This document shows, piece after piece, positions 43,435 through 63,700 of a stretch of DNA of 64,000 nucleotides (positions are counted from its first letter, which is position 1; each line of letters opens with the position of its first letter). The notes beneath the pieces were generated by a model. It saw nothing but the letters and a program-made list of their open reading frames with translations. It searched no databases and was not told where the DNA came from. The stretch is from Malus domestica. Lineage: Eukaryota > Streptophyta > Magnoliopsida > Rosales > Rosaceae. Both the position numbers and the translations under genes were made by a program. The DNA is taken from NCBI RefSeq assembly GCF_042453785.1, contig NC_091661.1, positions 31,983,501-32,047,500 of the forward strand, written 5' to 3'.

Positions 43435-51348
<7,914 letters not shown>

Positions 51349-52607: not shown

Positions 52608-53892
52608 ATTTTTTTAAGAGAAAAACTTGGACAAGTCTCTTTGATTTTGATAGTTTTAGGATAGAAGACGGTCAGTTAAACTAAAATGTAAATAACGTGA
52701 CTATTTTTAGTATTATGGTTTAATGGTATTTTTTATTATTTGTAAATGAAAGATCTCGATTTTTGCTTAAGGTAAATTTGAACTATGTTACTACTAGCTT
52801 ATTGTAAGGCTTAAATCACTCTCCTTAGTCTAACACTCTCTTACTTCTTAGTATAGATAATCTGTTAAAAGAAATACAAGTGACATGAACATTTCTATTT
52901 CAATCTCGTTCGTTAGTTATTAAAAATTCATGGTTTTTCATAAAAAAAAAAATTGGTGGTCGCTTGCCATTAAATTTGATATACAAAATTACGATTAAAC
53001 ATTAAAAATACATATTTAATAAAGAAATATTTGCTACTTAATACTACGGTTAGTGATATTTCTCTTCACTTGTAAGTGAGATGTTTTAGGTTTAATCATC
53101 GCCAAATGTGAATTTGAATTACATTATTGCTAACTCTTTGTGAGACTAAACCAACGGCCTTCTTTTTGATATTGTTAATATCGTTTGTTCAAAAAATAAA
53201 AAATAAAAAAATATTTGATTTCAAGTCTAAGGATAATGATTATTTCTTGGTCGCTTGCCCAAGAAAACATTTAAGCTCGTTATAAGCCGCTGAGCAAAAC
53301 GTCACATTTTGAGTCAAATCCACTTCAATAAAGAAGATTTTTCGATGTGCTTAGAATACAGAGTGAAGTAACTTATATCATTATACAATTTGAATGACAC
53401 TAAAAATAATTTTTTTCATTGTATATTAACATATTGTGTTCAATCACATGTTTCAACCACATAGAAAAATCTCTATTTCAGCTGTTTGAAGTGGTCCCCA
53501 CAGTATTTACCACTATAGTTCTCATTCAATATTGCAAGACGTTAGGCGTACCAAATTTCTTTGGCTATCAATATTTTTTTTAATAAAGATAAAATACGAA
53601 AAATAATTTGTACATATTTTTTTGTCATTCTATATAGTGTTTGTTAATTTTCTTTTAATTCATTCGATATGTTAAAATAAGAAAGTTTGTGTATGAATTT
53701 AAAATAATGCGCTGCCTGAAATCACATCTCTAAACTATCATTTGACGAGCAAAACATATGCTTAGCATAGTTTGATATCTCATGCATACAAAATTATGTT
53801 TATATCAAACTTGAGACCTTTCGTAATTAAATAGAGTTTGGAAGTTGCTAGTGTAGCTTGTTTTTTTTTTCTTAAAGGGAATTTTGGGGGTA
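52608..53892. other. gene-poor AT-rich spacer
   Basis: No gene recognised. Two diverged SINE-like pieces may be present (about 52735-52850 and 53050-53165). Both have a GTAAGTGAGA or AAATGAAAGA head and a TTTAATCATC or TTTGAACTAT stretch where a B-box would be. Too decayed to call firmly. Confidence 0.45.
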
Positions 53893-54060
53893 GGATTCTC
53901 TCTTCTTCATATTCTCCTTTTCTCCTCTTCTTTCTTATTTGAAGGTCACGATTAAGTCACGTCAGCATCTTGTGTTAACTTCTTTAGAGAGAAAAAAACA
54001 AAGAGGAAAAATGAAAGAGGAGAGAAGGACAGTGAGGGAAAAAGATTTGAAGAAGAGACT
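53893..54060. repeat. inverted-repeat MITE, relative of the 52408 element
   Basis: GGATTCTCTCTTCTTCATAT on the left faces, in reverse, GAATCCTAGTCTCTTCTTCA. The internal words GGTCACGATTAAGTCACGTC match GGTCATGGTTAAGCCACGTT of the 52408 element. A further related half-copy starts at about 54117 (AGGATTCTCTCCTC). Ends approximate. Confidence 0.5.
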
Positions 54061-54386
54061 AGGATTCTTGATGTTTTACATACAACAATCTCTGACGGTT
54101 TGATCTATGGAAGATACTAGGATTCTCTCCTCTTTTTTTCTTCTCTTGTTCTCACCCACCCTCAAGATTTCATCTTGTTTTTGCATCCTTGTAGAGAGAG
54201 AGAAAAAAAAAGTAAAATAACTGTGAGAGGAGAAGAGAGAGGGGAGAGGAAAAAGGAGTGAGAGTCTCTTTTAGGAATGGAGAGATTTTGCAGTGTGATT
54301 GGTACACAGGATGATACACCACATGTTACTGTATAAATAGTAGGATATGTGTGCTAAAAAGTTAATAACTTAAAAATAAAATTTTT

Positions 54387-55699
54387 GGGTTAATCTCAGT
54401 TTACTACTTTGAAGTTTTATGGTTTTCAACATGAAATTTTTTTCATCCCAAAGTCATACCTCAAGTCTTAATTTTGGGACAGTTTCATACATCCGTTAAG
54501 TTTTCTGTTAACTGATGATGTGGTGTACATGTAGCGTCACGTGTCAATATGAGTTCCACGTGGATATTAAAAATAATTAAAAAAAAAAACCCAACCCGTC
54601 TTCTGCCTCGCACCAACCCCTTCCATTCCTTCTTCCCTCTGCAACCCGCACCCTCTCCCCCAATCTTCCTTCACCACCAAAACCAGTCTCCCCCAAACAA
54701 AATTTACACTACTCGTTTCAGTTGTTTAAATACATCAAATTACCGTTGAACCTATACCTCTTTGTCGGCGAAGTCTCAGATCTACTTCTCCCTCTCCAAC
54801 ATTTCCCCCCAAATTCCAGACCCTAATTCTCATAAACCGTCGCAGAGACCTCCATTGCCCTCAATCCGCTCTGCTTCGCACTCTCCCGACGCTGATAGCG
54901 GTGTCAGTGTGAGGCTTTTGAAGTAATTTAGCTCCAATTTCAGTTCACCACTGCACGAATTAGGGTTTTTGGATGTTCGCCGCAGATGGTGAGGAGACGT
55001 GAGAGACTAGGTTTTATACGGAAGAATGCAGGCATCGTCGCAGAGCTCTGCGGCTCAGCCGGAAGTGATATTGCAATGGCTTCAGAAGGAGAAACTTAGG
55101 GAGGCTGCTAGTGCGGCAGAGACCAGGGAGGTCGCGCTGCAAGAGAGGGACTTGGCGGTAAAGGAGGTGGAGAAATTGAGGAACATTGTAAAAAGACAGA
55201 GGAAGGATTTGAAGGCCAGAATGTTGGAGGTTTCGAGGGCAGAGGCCGAACGGAAGAGGATGCTTGATGAACTCTCTAAAAAAAGGTTTGAGCCTTTTAA
55301 AAAATAATTTGTATACTCCAGTACATGATTTGGTTGGGGTGATATGGTTGGAGGGGTGTTGTCGGGAGTTTTTGGGGTGGGTGGGAGTTTCTGGGGGTTG
55401 GGGTATCGGAAGTGCAGAGGTCTGTTGTTCAAGAAGACGCCCATTTTTTATTTTTTGTGATTTTGTATTTTTTAAATTATTTTTAATATCCACGTGGGAC
55501 TCATATTGACACGTGACACTTAGTTATTGTCCACGTGTACACCACTTCATCATTTAACATAACTTTTAACGGAAAACTTAACGGATATATGAAACTGTCC
55601 CAAAATTAAGACTTGAGGTATGACTCTGGGATGAAAAAAACTTCATGTACCAAATGTTGAAAATCACCAAACTTCAGGGTAGTAAACTGAGATTAACCC
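54387..55699. mobile_element. Pack-MULE carrying a host gene fragment
   Basis: 1313 bases. Long inverted ends of about 195-230 bases (54387 to about 54580, and about 55471-55699) both begin GGGTTAATCTCAGTTTACTA and share TTAATTTTGGGACAGTTTCA and CACGTGGATATTAAAAATAA. The target duplication is AAAATTTTT, 9 bases and perfect (54378-54386 and 55700-55708), as expected for Mutator-like elements. No transposase inside. The interior (54590-55470) is GC-richer than its surroundings and holds gene-like leader sequence plus a 93-codon ORF matching part of augmin subunit 5, so it is a gene-capturing (Pack-) MULE. Confidence 0.92.
55026..55307 (+). pseudogene. AUG5: captured augmin subunit 5 (AUG5) fragment
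   Basis: A 93-codon ORF inside the Pack-MULE. Residues 1-22 ([20 protein letters not shown]) look like the N-terminus of AUG5/HAUS5. The rest ([54 protein letters not shown]) looks like its internal coiled coil, joined with the intervening protein part missing. AUG5 is a subunit of augmin, which recruits gamma-tubulin for microtubule branching in spindle and phragmoplast. The fragment keeps the start codon and possibly the parental leader, so it could be transcribed. It may be a chimeric small protein, an RNA-silencing source, or inert. Family match is from memory; the parent gene is not in this window. Confidence 0.7.
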
Positions 55700-57655
55700 A
55701 AAATTTTTCACCATTCTTATTAAAACACGTGTTATATCACTTGTATTCCTGTTACAACTAAAAATTTCTTATAGGAATGCAGTAAAAAAGTGAGTAAATA
55801 TTTAAGCGTCAGAAAAGTGGGAACACAATTCGAAGATCGGATCTGATAAGCACTCGTACTTATCATCCTATAGCAGACAGCTACTCCGCACTGGGGAAGA
55901 CAATGACAGATTGACTGGTAGATAATAAATTAGATTCTCGATAGCTTTGAAATACAAAATTATTTATTGATGGGAAAAGTGAAAAGTAGTGGGACCACAA
56001 CTGAAATGCGAAAAAAGAAAAAGAAGAAAATAGTGGGAAGTAAATTTAGTAATAAAGTACGAGGTAGGGTAGGGTAACGTGGCGGGCTTGAGTCGGATTT
56101 TTCCAAATATTCAAATCCGAATTCTCGTCTGATCATCTTTATGAGGATTATAGGGATTCGTGAATAATATCCATTCATTATATATCGTGAAGTTATAAAT
56201 TATTTTAAATATTTTTATTTAAAATTAAATACAAATAATACTTGACAAATATTAACTGCAGGATGTACGATAAACGAACACGATTTAGAGATCCCTAGAA
56301 TTCTCACCAAAAGGATCCGGAAGGATCCTGTTGGCAAATATTCCTCATACTATTTGTAAAAATTTACTATAGTAAATATTGTTAACAAGACGTAAAATAT
56401 AGGTGGTGATATTTACACTCATTTTTATTTTTTACTTAATTTTGTTAATTTTTATATTTTAATCTTCTTATTTGATTTGACGGTTAAGAATTAAAATGAT
56501 GTATAATAAGTAAAAAGAGTATGTAAATAGTACCACTCAAGAAAAATCACAAAGTACTGTAATAAAATAGAAGTGAGTGCAAGAACGAGTACTTGGCACC
56601 CCGGGTTTAATAAAATAAAAATATATTTGTGTTGGCATGTATTTAGTTTATTAATATTTAAGGGTGGTGTACTCACATGATATAGTCCACATAATTTAAA
56701 AAATATATATATATATATATTTTTTTTTTTTAAATCTCCCAAAGTAGGGAAAATTACTTCATGAGTTTCACATTTTTTGTTCATAATTTTCTACGAGCTA
56801 CTCTTGTTCTCGAAAATTTGAAGTTTGAATAAATTGTCCTCGCATAATTGTGAGTTAAATGTTTAGTAGTTAAATTTGTAAACTGTGATTTCCATCGCTA
56901 CCTTCCATAAAAAAATGGTGGTCCTTTTTCATTTCTCACGTTTTTTTGTCTGAAATAATTTTTTTATTTTAATTTTATGGGTGGCCTTATATTCCGAAGA
57001 AAAAGAAGAAAAAATAAAAAGGGTAATCGCATTGTGCTTAAAGTGGCGAGGGAGCAACATGTGACACATGGTTTTGTATGTTTTCCAAGGATAATTTATG
57101 CAAGGCGACATCTATAGTCACGCTATCTTATCACCCAAATACTTTCTACACAAAAATGGACATCTATATTCATGCTATCTTAACAATGAGACTCTTTCGC
57201 AAATTATATGGCATTTATAACACCGAAAAAAATTGTGTTTGGCTTGAGGTCGCGTTAAGATTGAGTGAATATATTGGGTAGCGTGAAATACTAAGACTGT
57301 TGAGCTTCACACGGATAATCTACATAAGGTCCAATTAAATATTAACTGACAGTAGCGAGACATGCCTCAGTGATAAAATCAATTGATAGTAACGAGACAT
57401 GCGTTTAATGATAAAATTAATTAACAATAATGAAAGTAGCCTAAGGTCTCAATTGAGATTCTATGTATAAAATCTCTTGATGTTATGATCTGAAACAACA
57501 CGATGCATTCTCACGAACACTACTAACAAATATAAATTCAAACTTAGTCACAAAAATCGACGTATTATATTGGTCATTGAGTACGATGGTTGTAGGTGGT
57601 AATGAAGGACAGTACAAAGGTCCCAATAGACAATGATTCAATTGCGACAAAAAAG
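55700..57655. other. gene-poor AT-rich spacer
   Basis: No recognisable gene. Contains a short (AT)n run at about 56701-56720 followed by a T-run, and assorted low-complexity ORFs. Part of the long gap between TIO and the TOPLESS-related gene. Confidence 0.5.
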
Positions 57656-60703: not shown

Positions 60704-63700
60704 ATGTCTTCGTTAAGCAGGGAGCTAGTATTCCTGATCTTACAGTTCTTAGATGAGGAGAAGTTCAAGGAAACAGTTCATAGGTAAGTGTGGTTACGCA
60801 GTACTGTTTTGTTCTGCTGAGGAAAATTTGGGGAAGAGAAGATTGGAAAACGTACCTGTCTACTTTCGGGTTTTTGTGTTGTTTTGAGTATTATGGCCTA
60901 TACGAAGCGTACCAAACAAAAATGCCGGTTTGAAGCCAGCCTTACATGTTGCAGAGTGGTGGCTTGCTCTATGGTTTGCATTTGTCTTTTTCTTCCCCGC
61001 GTTCCTCAGCAGAAAAATGGAGCAAGATAAATTGGGTTTAAACGCAATATTAATGCCATGTCCTTGTATGTAATGTGCTTCTTTTTGACATTTAGGCTTG
61101 AGCAAGAGTCTGGTTTTTTCTTCAATATGAAGCATTTCGAGGACCAAGTCCAGGCTGGAGAGTGGGATGAAGTTGAGCGCTATTTGTGTGGCTTCACTAA
61201 AGTTGAAGACAACCGGTATTCAATGAAGATTTTTTTTGAAATTAGGAAGCAGAAGTATTTGGAAGCTCTTGACAGGTGAGGTTCATAACTATCGCTTTTG
61301 ACATTGGTGAACGTGTGGAAGTTGATGCAAAGAGCTGAATTTGTGATTGATTGACTGTGCCAAATTTCATACCAAATTGATGTGATAAATGCAATTAAAA
61401 CGGTTATGGGTTTCTGGTGGTTGTTTAATCAAAGGATAGAAATAATGCTGAGCCGTGTCGGTTTGTAGTGCTGTAGAATTTGATCTCAATAATCCTTTAC
61501 GTAGCTATTTGATTAGTTAACTTAATTTTCGTTTCCTCCTTTCAGGCAGGATAGGGCAAGGGCTGTTGAGATTCTTGTGAAGGACCTTAAGGTTTTTTCA
61601 TCATTTAATGAGGAACTTTTCAAGGAGATCACCCAGTTGCTTAGTCTTGATAATTTTAGGTATTCTTGTTTTCCTCTGTTGCTTCTTTGTTAACCTGGAG
61701 GTTTGCCTTGTATTTGGCCCTGATTCTTTCTATTGGTATCACATCATCAGGCAAAATGAGCAGCTTTCCAAGTATGGAGACACAAAATCGGCTCGAAATA
61801 TCATGCTTATAGAACTTAAAAAGCTCATTGAGGCGAACCCATTATTTCGTGATAAGCTTGCATTCCCAGCCTTCAAAAGTTCGCGTCTTCGAACGTTAAT
61901 AAACCAGAGGTCATTCTCACATCTCCTGTTAACTTATTTTGTGCAAGTTTGTCATTAACCTGTGATCACCTCTTTTTATACAGGGTTTTGGTTATGCCAC
62001 TAGATGCCTGATAATCCTGTAGCGAGTGTCCTCTTTTGGATTGTAGGATACATTTGCAATTGCTAATTGATAGATAATTACTGAGTGATCTGATCAATAA
62101 CATTTTGCCAATGCCAATGTTGGATGTCCACAGTCATTTCACATTTATTAATAAGGAACTGATTTCCTGATATTTTCTTTCACTTCTGATGAGAGAACTT
62201 TTGAAGCTCATTTCCATATTTGAATTTTCAGTCTCAATTGGCAGCACCAGCTTTGCAAGAATCCCCGTCCAAACCCTGATATTAAAACACTATTTATGGA
62301 TCATTCTTGCACTCCAACTGCTAACGGATCTCGTCCACCACCCACAAATAGTCCCCTTGTAGGACCAATTCCAAAGGCTGGCGCATTTCCTCCTATTGGT
62401 GCCCATGGTGTAAGTTGCACCTAATTATCTCCATAAGAGAGTGCAACAATTTCTAACAGTACTTGGGATTGACTATTTATCATTGTGCAGCCATTTCAAC
62501 CCGTTGTCTCCCCATCTCCTGGTGCCATTGCTGGGTGGATGTCAAGCACTAATCCTTCTTTGCCCCACCCTGCTGTTCCAGCAGCTCCTCCTGGTATGCA
62601 GCCTTCTAGTGCAGCTGCTTTCTTGAAGCACCCAAGGACCCCTACAGGTGTTACAGGGATTGATTATCAATCAGCTGATTCAGAGCACTTGATGAAGCGC
62701 ATTCGCACTGGCCAAGCTGATGAGGTGTGACAAGAAACAATGTTTTATGCAAGCTCAATTACCATGTTTTACTTGTAATAAGCACTAAGATCTTGCTCCC
62801 CCTTCTTCTAGTACAAATAATGACGAAAATACCTACGCTCACCATGGTCTTTCAGGTGTCCTTTTCTGGTGTGATGCATAATTCCAATGTCTATTCGCAA
62901 GATGATCTTCCTAGGGCTGTTGTCCGTACCCTTAGTCAAGGATCTAATGTGATGAGCATGGACTTCCATCCACAACAGCAAACTATTCTTCTAGGTTTGT
63001 ACTTGGATATAGTTTGATCACCAGTTGTTTTTTTGGTTCATTTTTCTGAAGTTTTCAATTATTTTGTTTGTAGTTGGAACAAATGTTGGTGATATCAGCC
63101 TCTGGGAAGTAGGGTCCCGGGAGAGGTTGGTACATAGGCCTTTCAAGGTTTGGGATATACAAACTGCGTCAACACCATTGCAGGTATTGTATGTTATGGT
63201 TTTATAGGACTTGTTACTTGCTTTCCTGTTATCTATATCGTCAGTAATGAGTTACATGATGGGGTTGGGTCTATCAGAAACTCATAACCATTGTTCAAGG
63301 AAGATATAATTTTGAGTCTTATTCTTATGATATTTTCACCAAGACCAGGGTAGTTGACACCTTGAACTAAACTTTGGTACAATAAGTATATTGATCTAGA
63401 AGATCAACTGATTGTACTTTAAAATCATTTCCTGATTCAGACAGCTCTGGTGAATGATGCTGCAATATCAGTGAATCGTTGTGTATGGGCACCAGATGGA
63501 CTTATGTTGGGTATGTACACTCCTGATGGAAGGAGACAAATAGTTAGCTTTTTTTTGTGAGATAACATTGATGACCTGCCTTTTACATTTCCCAGGTGTT
63601 GCATTCTCTAAGCACATTGTTCAGATATATAATTACAATCCAACTGGAGAACTGAGACAACATTTGGAGGTAAGCTTGTACTTCATATAATTTTTTCCTA

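Follow-up and report, generated by a model that had tools for sequence, protein, structure and literature searches.

Positions 54387-55699 of the window, by which we mean the whole stretch of 64,000 nucleotides of Malus domestica DNA that was analysed, located on contig C1 of a 651-Mb, 19-contig assembly, hold a 1313-bp element whose interior resembles the start of a gene for augmin subunit 5 (AUGMIN5, or AUG5). This locus raises the question of how part of a host gene came to lie between the ends of a mobile element, and of whether the reading frame that is open within it matters. The element has inverted ends and target duplications, a donor gene, deletions relative to that donor, and a second copy with the same junction. 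We consider it very probable (about 0.88) that it is a non-autonomous Mutator-like element (Pack-MULE) that acquired one continuous stretch from the 5′ end of the AUGMIN5 gene on contig C17, suffered two losses, and was then moved or copied.

Ends, target duplications and related elements

The arms of the element (Table 1) measure 199 nt on the left and 232 nt on the right, which are long terminal inverted repeats (TIRs) of the kind that characterizes MULEs. Aligned end to end, they share 199 common columns with 14 mismatches, in addition to 34 gap columns, and they can be divided into four aligned blocks of 41-83 nt that are each 83-95% complementary. The duplicated sequence is within the 9-11 bp range of MULE target sites. 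Given that it consists only of A and T, it is weak evidence when taken alone, and the duplications found throughout the family (see below) add support. GC content is 0.46-0.52 over the cargo and 0.23-0.39 in the flanks, as measured in 200-base windows. Thus, the inverted ends, the perfect 9-base duplication and the GC-richer interior that an earlier note had described are all borne out.

Arms, family-like subterminal stretches and AUG5 cargo together account for almost the full 1313 bp, and a sequence comparison that sought an origin for positions 55343-55369 found none. As is characteristic of Pack-MULEs, none of the transposase-domain matches listed falls inside the element. To its left, purine- and pyrimidine-rich stretches at window positions 53891-54262 contain several short inverted and direct repeats, and possibly represent the remnant of another mobile element. 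The left neighbour is a protein kinase exon (PF00069, window 44764-45105) and the right neighbour a TOPLESS-related exon (PF21889, window 61608-61955), and the element is probably intergenic between these two genes.

Table 1. Features of the element and its target site, in window coordinates.
Feature	Position	Strand	Remarks
Left 9-bp target-site duplication, AAAATTTTT	54378..54386	.	0 mismatches to 55700-55708
Left terminal inverted repeat (GGGTTAATCTCAG...)	54387..54585	+	Three gaps of 9-12 bases make it shorter than the right arm
Subterminal C-rich stretch	54586..54693	+	Partly like the family: 82% to L022 (element positions 214-310)
Cargo, upstream/5′ leader of AUGMIN5	54694..55025	+	Parent C17:5182170 onward; 27-bp deletion at about 54992/54993
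93-codon ORF	55026..55307	+	AUGMIN5 codons 1-22 joined to exon 1 codons 112 onward; tail and stop in intron-1 sequence
Junction of 267-bp in-frame deletion at 5-bp repeat AAGGA	55086..55090	+	Alignment to donor
Cargo, start of AUGMIN5 intron 1	55286..55342	+	Predicted boundary
Right subterminal G-rich stretch	55343..55467	+	Matches family member L019 from 55370 on
Right terminal inverted repeat	55468..55699	-	Arm alignment
Right 9-bp target-site duplication, AAAATTTTT	55700..55708	.	0 mismatches to 54378-54386

A genome search with the right arm yielded 42 matches, listed from the best 40 of 2130 first-look candidates. From 30 loci, we removed three that repeat other loci (L018, L031 and L042), two whose second arm is cut by the locus end (L020 and L041) and four with no second arm (L030, L036, L037 and L038). 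Together with a further element found in L032 and with L011, which replaces L018, the remaining 21 loci form a set of 23 two-armed candidates. Duplications of 9 bp are perfect in 20 of these, carry one mismatch in two, and are missing from one (L043). The search for duplications covered a range of end offsets, and for L011 and L021, where an 11-bp duplication with one mismatch scored highest, the perfect 9-bp duplication was used. All 20 perfect duplications are different and A+T-rich.

Nine interior types were distinguished by blastn between the trimmed interiors of the 22 elements other than L043. One interior is shared by five elements, another by three, a third by two (with four more sharing it in part), and the AUG5 interior by the window element and its sister; five elements have single interiors and one has none. 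Interior GC content is 0.46-0.56 in every element that has an interior (21 of 22). As the earlier note had anticipated, other copies of the ends carry different cargoes, and the AUG5 interior is not family-wide, which the note had named as a refuting condition, being present in one of the 21 other elements compared.

A Pfam search of two ORFs from other family members gave no match. The cargo of L028 (positions 1800-2930, or C16:9851086-9852216) matches three consecutive pieces of C9:8215598-8216674 with 87-100% identity. These pieces lie approximately 150 and 475 bp apart on C9 and are joined in L028 as if introns were missing, which is what might be expected of an intronless capture or the capture of an intronless retrocopy; a 91% copy of L028 is located at C5:9945330-9946440. 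This match to a C9 locus suggests that the family has captured sequences besides AUG5.

The genome contains at least 151 matches to MULE transposase domains, many of them within frames that are 600-800 codons long. An autonomous counterpart with these ends did not emerge, as no transposase match lies within 10 kb of a TIR match among the matches listed (the best 150 of 482 and the best 40 of 2130, respectively). Mobilization would presumably depend on a MULE transposase encoded elsewhere in the genome.

The donor gene and the two internal deletions

The interior of the element aligns with C17:5182170-5183110 and, less closely, with C9:4771682-4772618. Identity to the cargo is 94% for C17 versus 87% for C9 in the coiled-coil part, and 87% versus 81% in the leader part, where the alignment to C17 contains gaps. 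Because C17 is the closer relative in both parts, and a tree agrees, we assign the role of donor to C17 AUGMIN5. The alignment of the 3′ cargo piece with this gene extends over 257 columns at 94% identity, covering exon 1 and sequence beyond. Thus, the cargo is a fragment of an identifiable host gene that is not a transposon, as is typical of Pack-MULEs, and the proposal of a Pack-MULE with AUG5 cargo is upheld by the ends, the duplication and the existence of a close donor for both the 3′ and the gapped 5′ piece.

We take the C9 and C17 loci, which the analysis itself identifies simply as two related loci, to be homoeologues from a genome duplication. Both exhibit matches to the HAUS5 profile in a row, from profile positions 1 to 643, with gaps at approximately 284-309 and 487-512 for C17 and 284-361 for C9; stops occur inside several matches, which may span introns. 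On this basis, both genes are taken as complete. Exon 1 matches the PDB entry ‘AUGMIN subunit 5’ with an E value of 3.4e-70. Partial HAUS5 matches downstream of the C9 gene (C9:4806763-4807626 and C9:4884550-4886453), for which no exon-1 match is listed, are apparent local duplicates. The donor is devoid of MULE ends, as a blastn search with the whole element matched only the cargo in the 9.9-kb stretches surrounding the two genes (L009 and L010). A genome search with the cargo alone returned five candidate places, all of which were scored, and these comprise the two genes and three elements (the window element, L011 and L016), with no further AUG5 captures.

Pack-MULEs prefer the 5′ ends of genes. 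In the present case, the cargo begins 359 bp before the AUGMIN5 start codon and ends approximately 55 bp past exon 1, where the boundary with intron 1 is predicted from a GT that follows the exon-1 match to HAUS5 and from the location of the next match at C17:5183404. Given that the cargo spans the leader and extends past the end of exon 1, it was captured from genomic DNA.

Two stretches present in the donor are missing from the cargo: one of 27 bp, from the leader, and one of 267 bp, from exon 1, which corresponds to 89 codons removed in frame directly after codon 22. If a deletion were placed at random in the same stretch, microhomology of 5 bp or more, as seen at this junction, would occur with a probability of 0.006-0.009. 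The deleted 267 bp are open coding sequence in the C17 donor, have a counterpart in the C9 gene, and are matched by the Arabidopsis AUG5 protein, and therefore they are not an intron. Capture of a spliced transcript, as suggested by the clean join, was rejected because the missing sequence is coding and the cargo passes the end of exon 1.

The simplest account is that the cargo represents one collinear genomic stretch, composed of upstream and leader sequence, exon 1 and the start of intron 1, that carries two internal deletions; a single template switch within the donor is an equally admitted form of this account. The earlier note had instead viewed the cargo as two separated pieces, a description that gives way to one stretch with an in-frame deletion at a short repeat. 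An explanation closer to that description, and mutually exclusive with a single stretch, is that the leader and the first 22 codons were captured and the coiled-coil stretch was added separately as a second filler. A clean join at 5-bp microhomology is also produced by template switching, according to the available text of PMC8277862, and switching between two donor points in one repair event would blend the single- and double-capture views. However, the two parts retain the order and orientation of the donor, are nearer to the same homoeologue, and lie just 267 bp apart there. Moreover, the loss of 27 bp from the leader indicates that small internal deletions happened, and one capture followed by deletion involves fewer events. 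Two separate captures are thus considered unlikely.

We therefore favour a history that begins with a MULE taking one continuous genomic stretch across the 5′ end of C17 AUGMIN5. Capture might have proceeded by repair-type template switching, which fits the microhomology at the internal junction, and the accessible part of PMC8277862 presents a model in which Pack-MULEs acquire sequence through gap filling with template switching. Two short stretches of cargo would have been lost, either at capture or later but before the element was copied. The 267-bp loss between 5-bp repeats would have retained the frame by chance, which is about a one-in-three event. The finished element would then have moved or been copied, giving rise to two copies with different 9-bp target duplications.

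A further copy and a second capture

The second copy, L011 (C17:30595123-30596283), is 97% identical to the window element over 1129 bp, carries the same two deletions and junction, and is flanked on both sides by the 9-bp sequence TTAATTTTA. Given the shared junction and the separate duplication, the finished element was evidently moved or copied after capture. The first base of L011 is unlike that of the family, and its left arm is approximately 150 bp shorter by loss (1161 versus 1313 bp overall).

Over the shared leader and exon sequence, 6 of 316 columns differ between the two copies, 20 of 315 between the window element and the C17 gene, and 39 of 343 between the C17 and C9 genes. From this ranking, the capture is younger than the C9/C17 split and clearly older than the split between the copies, where the dating is relative only and draws on 315-343 columns. 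The judgement of the earlier note that the element is fairly young, which was made from the similarity of the arms, is consequently not supported for the capture.

Another element at C17:6198540-6199859 (L016, positions 941-2260) has a perfect 9-bp duplication, TTTTAAATA; in the right arm and in a left-arm piece of 73 nt, it is approximately 70% identical to the window element. Its cargo consists of 489 bp of AUG5 5′ sequence that groups with the C9 gene in unrooted trees (ultrafast bootstrap 100, FastTree 0.98). Nine columns join C9 and L016 against the rest and one joins C17 and L016, a comparison that is likewise unrooted. The L016 cargo starts 81 bp further in than that of the window element, unless its left part was lost to the adjacent insert, and ends elsewhere, within the segment that the window element has lost. 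The reading frame is closed after 48 codons. The insert, located between left arm and cargo, is retroelement-like, with repeats visible in its sequence and what we take to be a primer-site motif. We considered whether damage to a copy of the window element could have produced L016, and rejected this on the basis of its C9-grouping cargo, its retention of part of the deleted region, its other breakpoints and its own duplication.

The start of AUGMIN5 has thus been captured by MULEs with related ends on at least two occasions, and both the C9 and the C17 gene have served as donor. No report of one gene captured from both homoeologues was found in the available portions of the literature searched (PMC13317346, PMC11197308, PMC8277862, PMC12748588, PMC3310237 and PMC4858842), which takes in few subscription papers; in the accessible part of PMC11197308, Pack-MULEs occur only in a reference. 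It is conceivable that AUGMIN5 has a capture hotspot at its 5′ end, a promoter-proximal region in which open chromatin, fragility or GC skew might recruit MULE repair, and that an augmin micro-peptide is expressed from the in-frame, domain-deleted ORF, but we give this combined proposal barely any credence.

The open reading frame and known Pack-MULEs

The start codon and 93-codon ORF described in the earlier note are present, and the predicted product is AUG5-like as claimed, matching the Pfam HAUS5 profile (E 2.1e-12) and, with a best E value of 1.3e-21, three PDB sequences that bear the name AUGMIN subunit 5. One hypothesis is that the ORF is a functional micro-gene, with a putative product of 93 residues that would bind to the coiled coil of AUG3 and exert a dominant-negative effect as an augmin peptide. 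The frame is open with the parental start codon and leader in place, the retained part matches AUG5 residues 110-173, and, according to the accessible text of PMC12748588, the augmin of Arabidopsis contains a long parallel coiled coil made up of AUG3 and AUG5. A putative peptide without residues 23-111 of the N-terminal region but with the stretch that follows them might, in principle, interfere with augmin. The ORF is open in both the window element and L011, and element-side dN/dS point estimates fall below 1 (0.36-0.8 over four tallies).

However, the element branches carry 9 replacement and 5 or 6 silent changes, which does not differ from neutral expectation (p 0.37 for 9:5 and 0.23 for 9:6), whereas the gene branches are constrained (4 replacement to 9 silent, p 0.001). 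The four element tallies of 9:5, 9:6, 8:6 and 6:2 correspond to p values of 0.366, 0.233, 0.136 and 1.0. The numbers involved are small. Codon 3 contributes two replacements, one from each copy, junction codon 22 is left out, and codon 72, which is ambiguous, is treated as a silent change of the element in the 9:6 tally and of the genes in the 4:9 tally. The contrast is weakened by the fact that element and gene ratios are not significantly apart (p 0.15). Purifying selection on the ORF was not detected in any of the four tallies with their few changes, and dN/dS estimates below 1 leave room for weak constraint. In simulations of 87 codons with 9, 12 or 14 substitutions and no indels, the frame remains open with a neutral probability of 0.45-0.59. 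Furthermore, the frames of the two copies end at different stop codons beyond exon 1, and the frame of the other capture, L016, is closed early. Thus, the suggestion that the frame was kept as a sign of function is not supported by these comparisons. A functional micro-gene appears highly improbable, and the ORF is most likely a neutral by-product. Antisense ORFs of 120 codons (window 55082-55444) and 159 codons (55014-55493) on the minus strand over the cargo exceed the sense ORF in length, and are likely due to chance in GC-richer DNA.

The element may instead be a candidate small-RNA source, whose transcripts would feed 21-24 nt RNAs against AUG5. The long, 94%-identical alignment with the donor over exon 1 and beyond is favourable to such a role, but the cargo is present in one orientation only, and we regard the idea as rather doubtful. 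Nothing in the analysis shows that the captured piece is active, and both a dominant-negative and a small-RNA action are hypothetical.

This one assembly contains the donor, its homoeologue, both copies of the element and a second capture that arose independently, which makes the order of events directly readable: the gene pair was duplicated, the gene start was captured from C17, the in-frame deletion took place (possibly at capture), and the element transposed. That related MULEs repeatedly took the start of one gene also provides a testable case for how Pack-MULEs choose donors, and if such repetition proves common genome-wide, donor choice would not be random.

The Pack-MULEs of rice, maize, Arabidopsis and tomato, as described in the available portions of PMC3310237, PMC4858842 and PMC8277862, share with this element the 9-11 bp target-site duplications, long TIRs, a GC-rich fragment of a host gene, the lack of a transposase, and copies with distinct duplications. 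It appears to differ from them by the two independent captures of the same gene, one per homoeologue, and by a cargo with two internal deletions, one of them in frame. PM-ZIBP of tomato is likewise a Pack-MULE in multiple copies that carries one host-gene fragment and has A+T-rich duplications, although tandem TIRs are not seen here, and the accessible text of PMC3310237 gives 14 copies for PM-ZIBP versus two here. New junctions within captured cargo are also found in the chimeric MULE-derived genes of Oryza, but the ORFs of those genes derive from two or more parental genes, according to the available part of PMC4858842, whereas here a single gene supplies both parts. This kind of element is therefore well known, being an ordinary Pack-MULE with a clean donor, and the unusual point appears to be that one gene was captured from both homoeologues.
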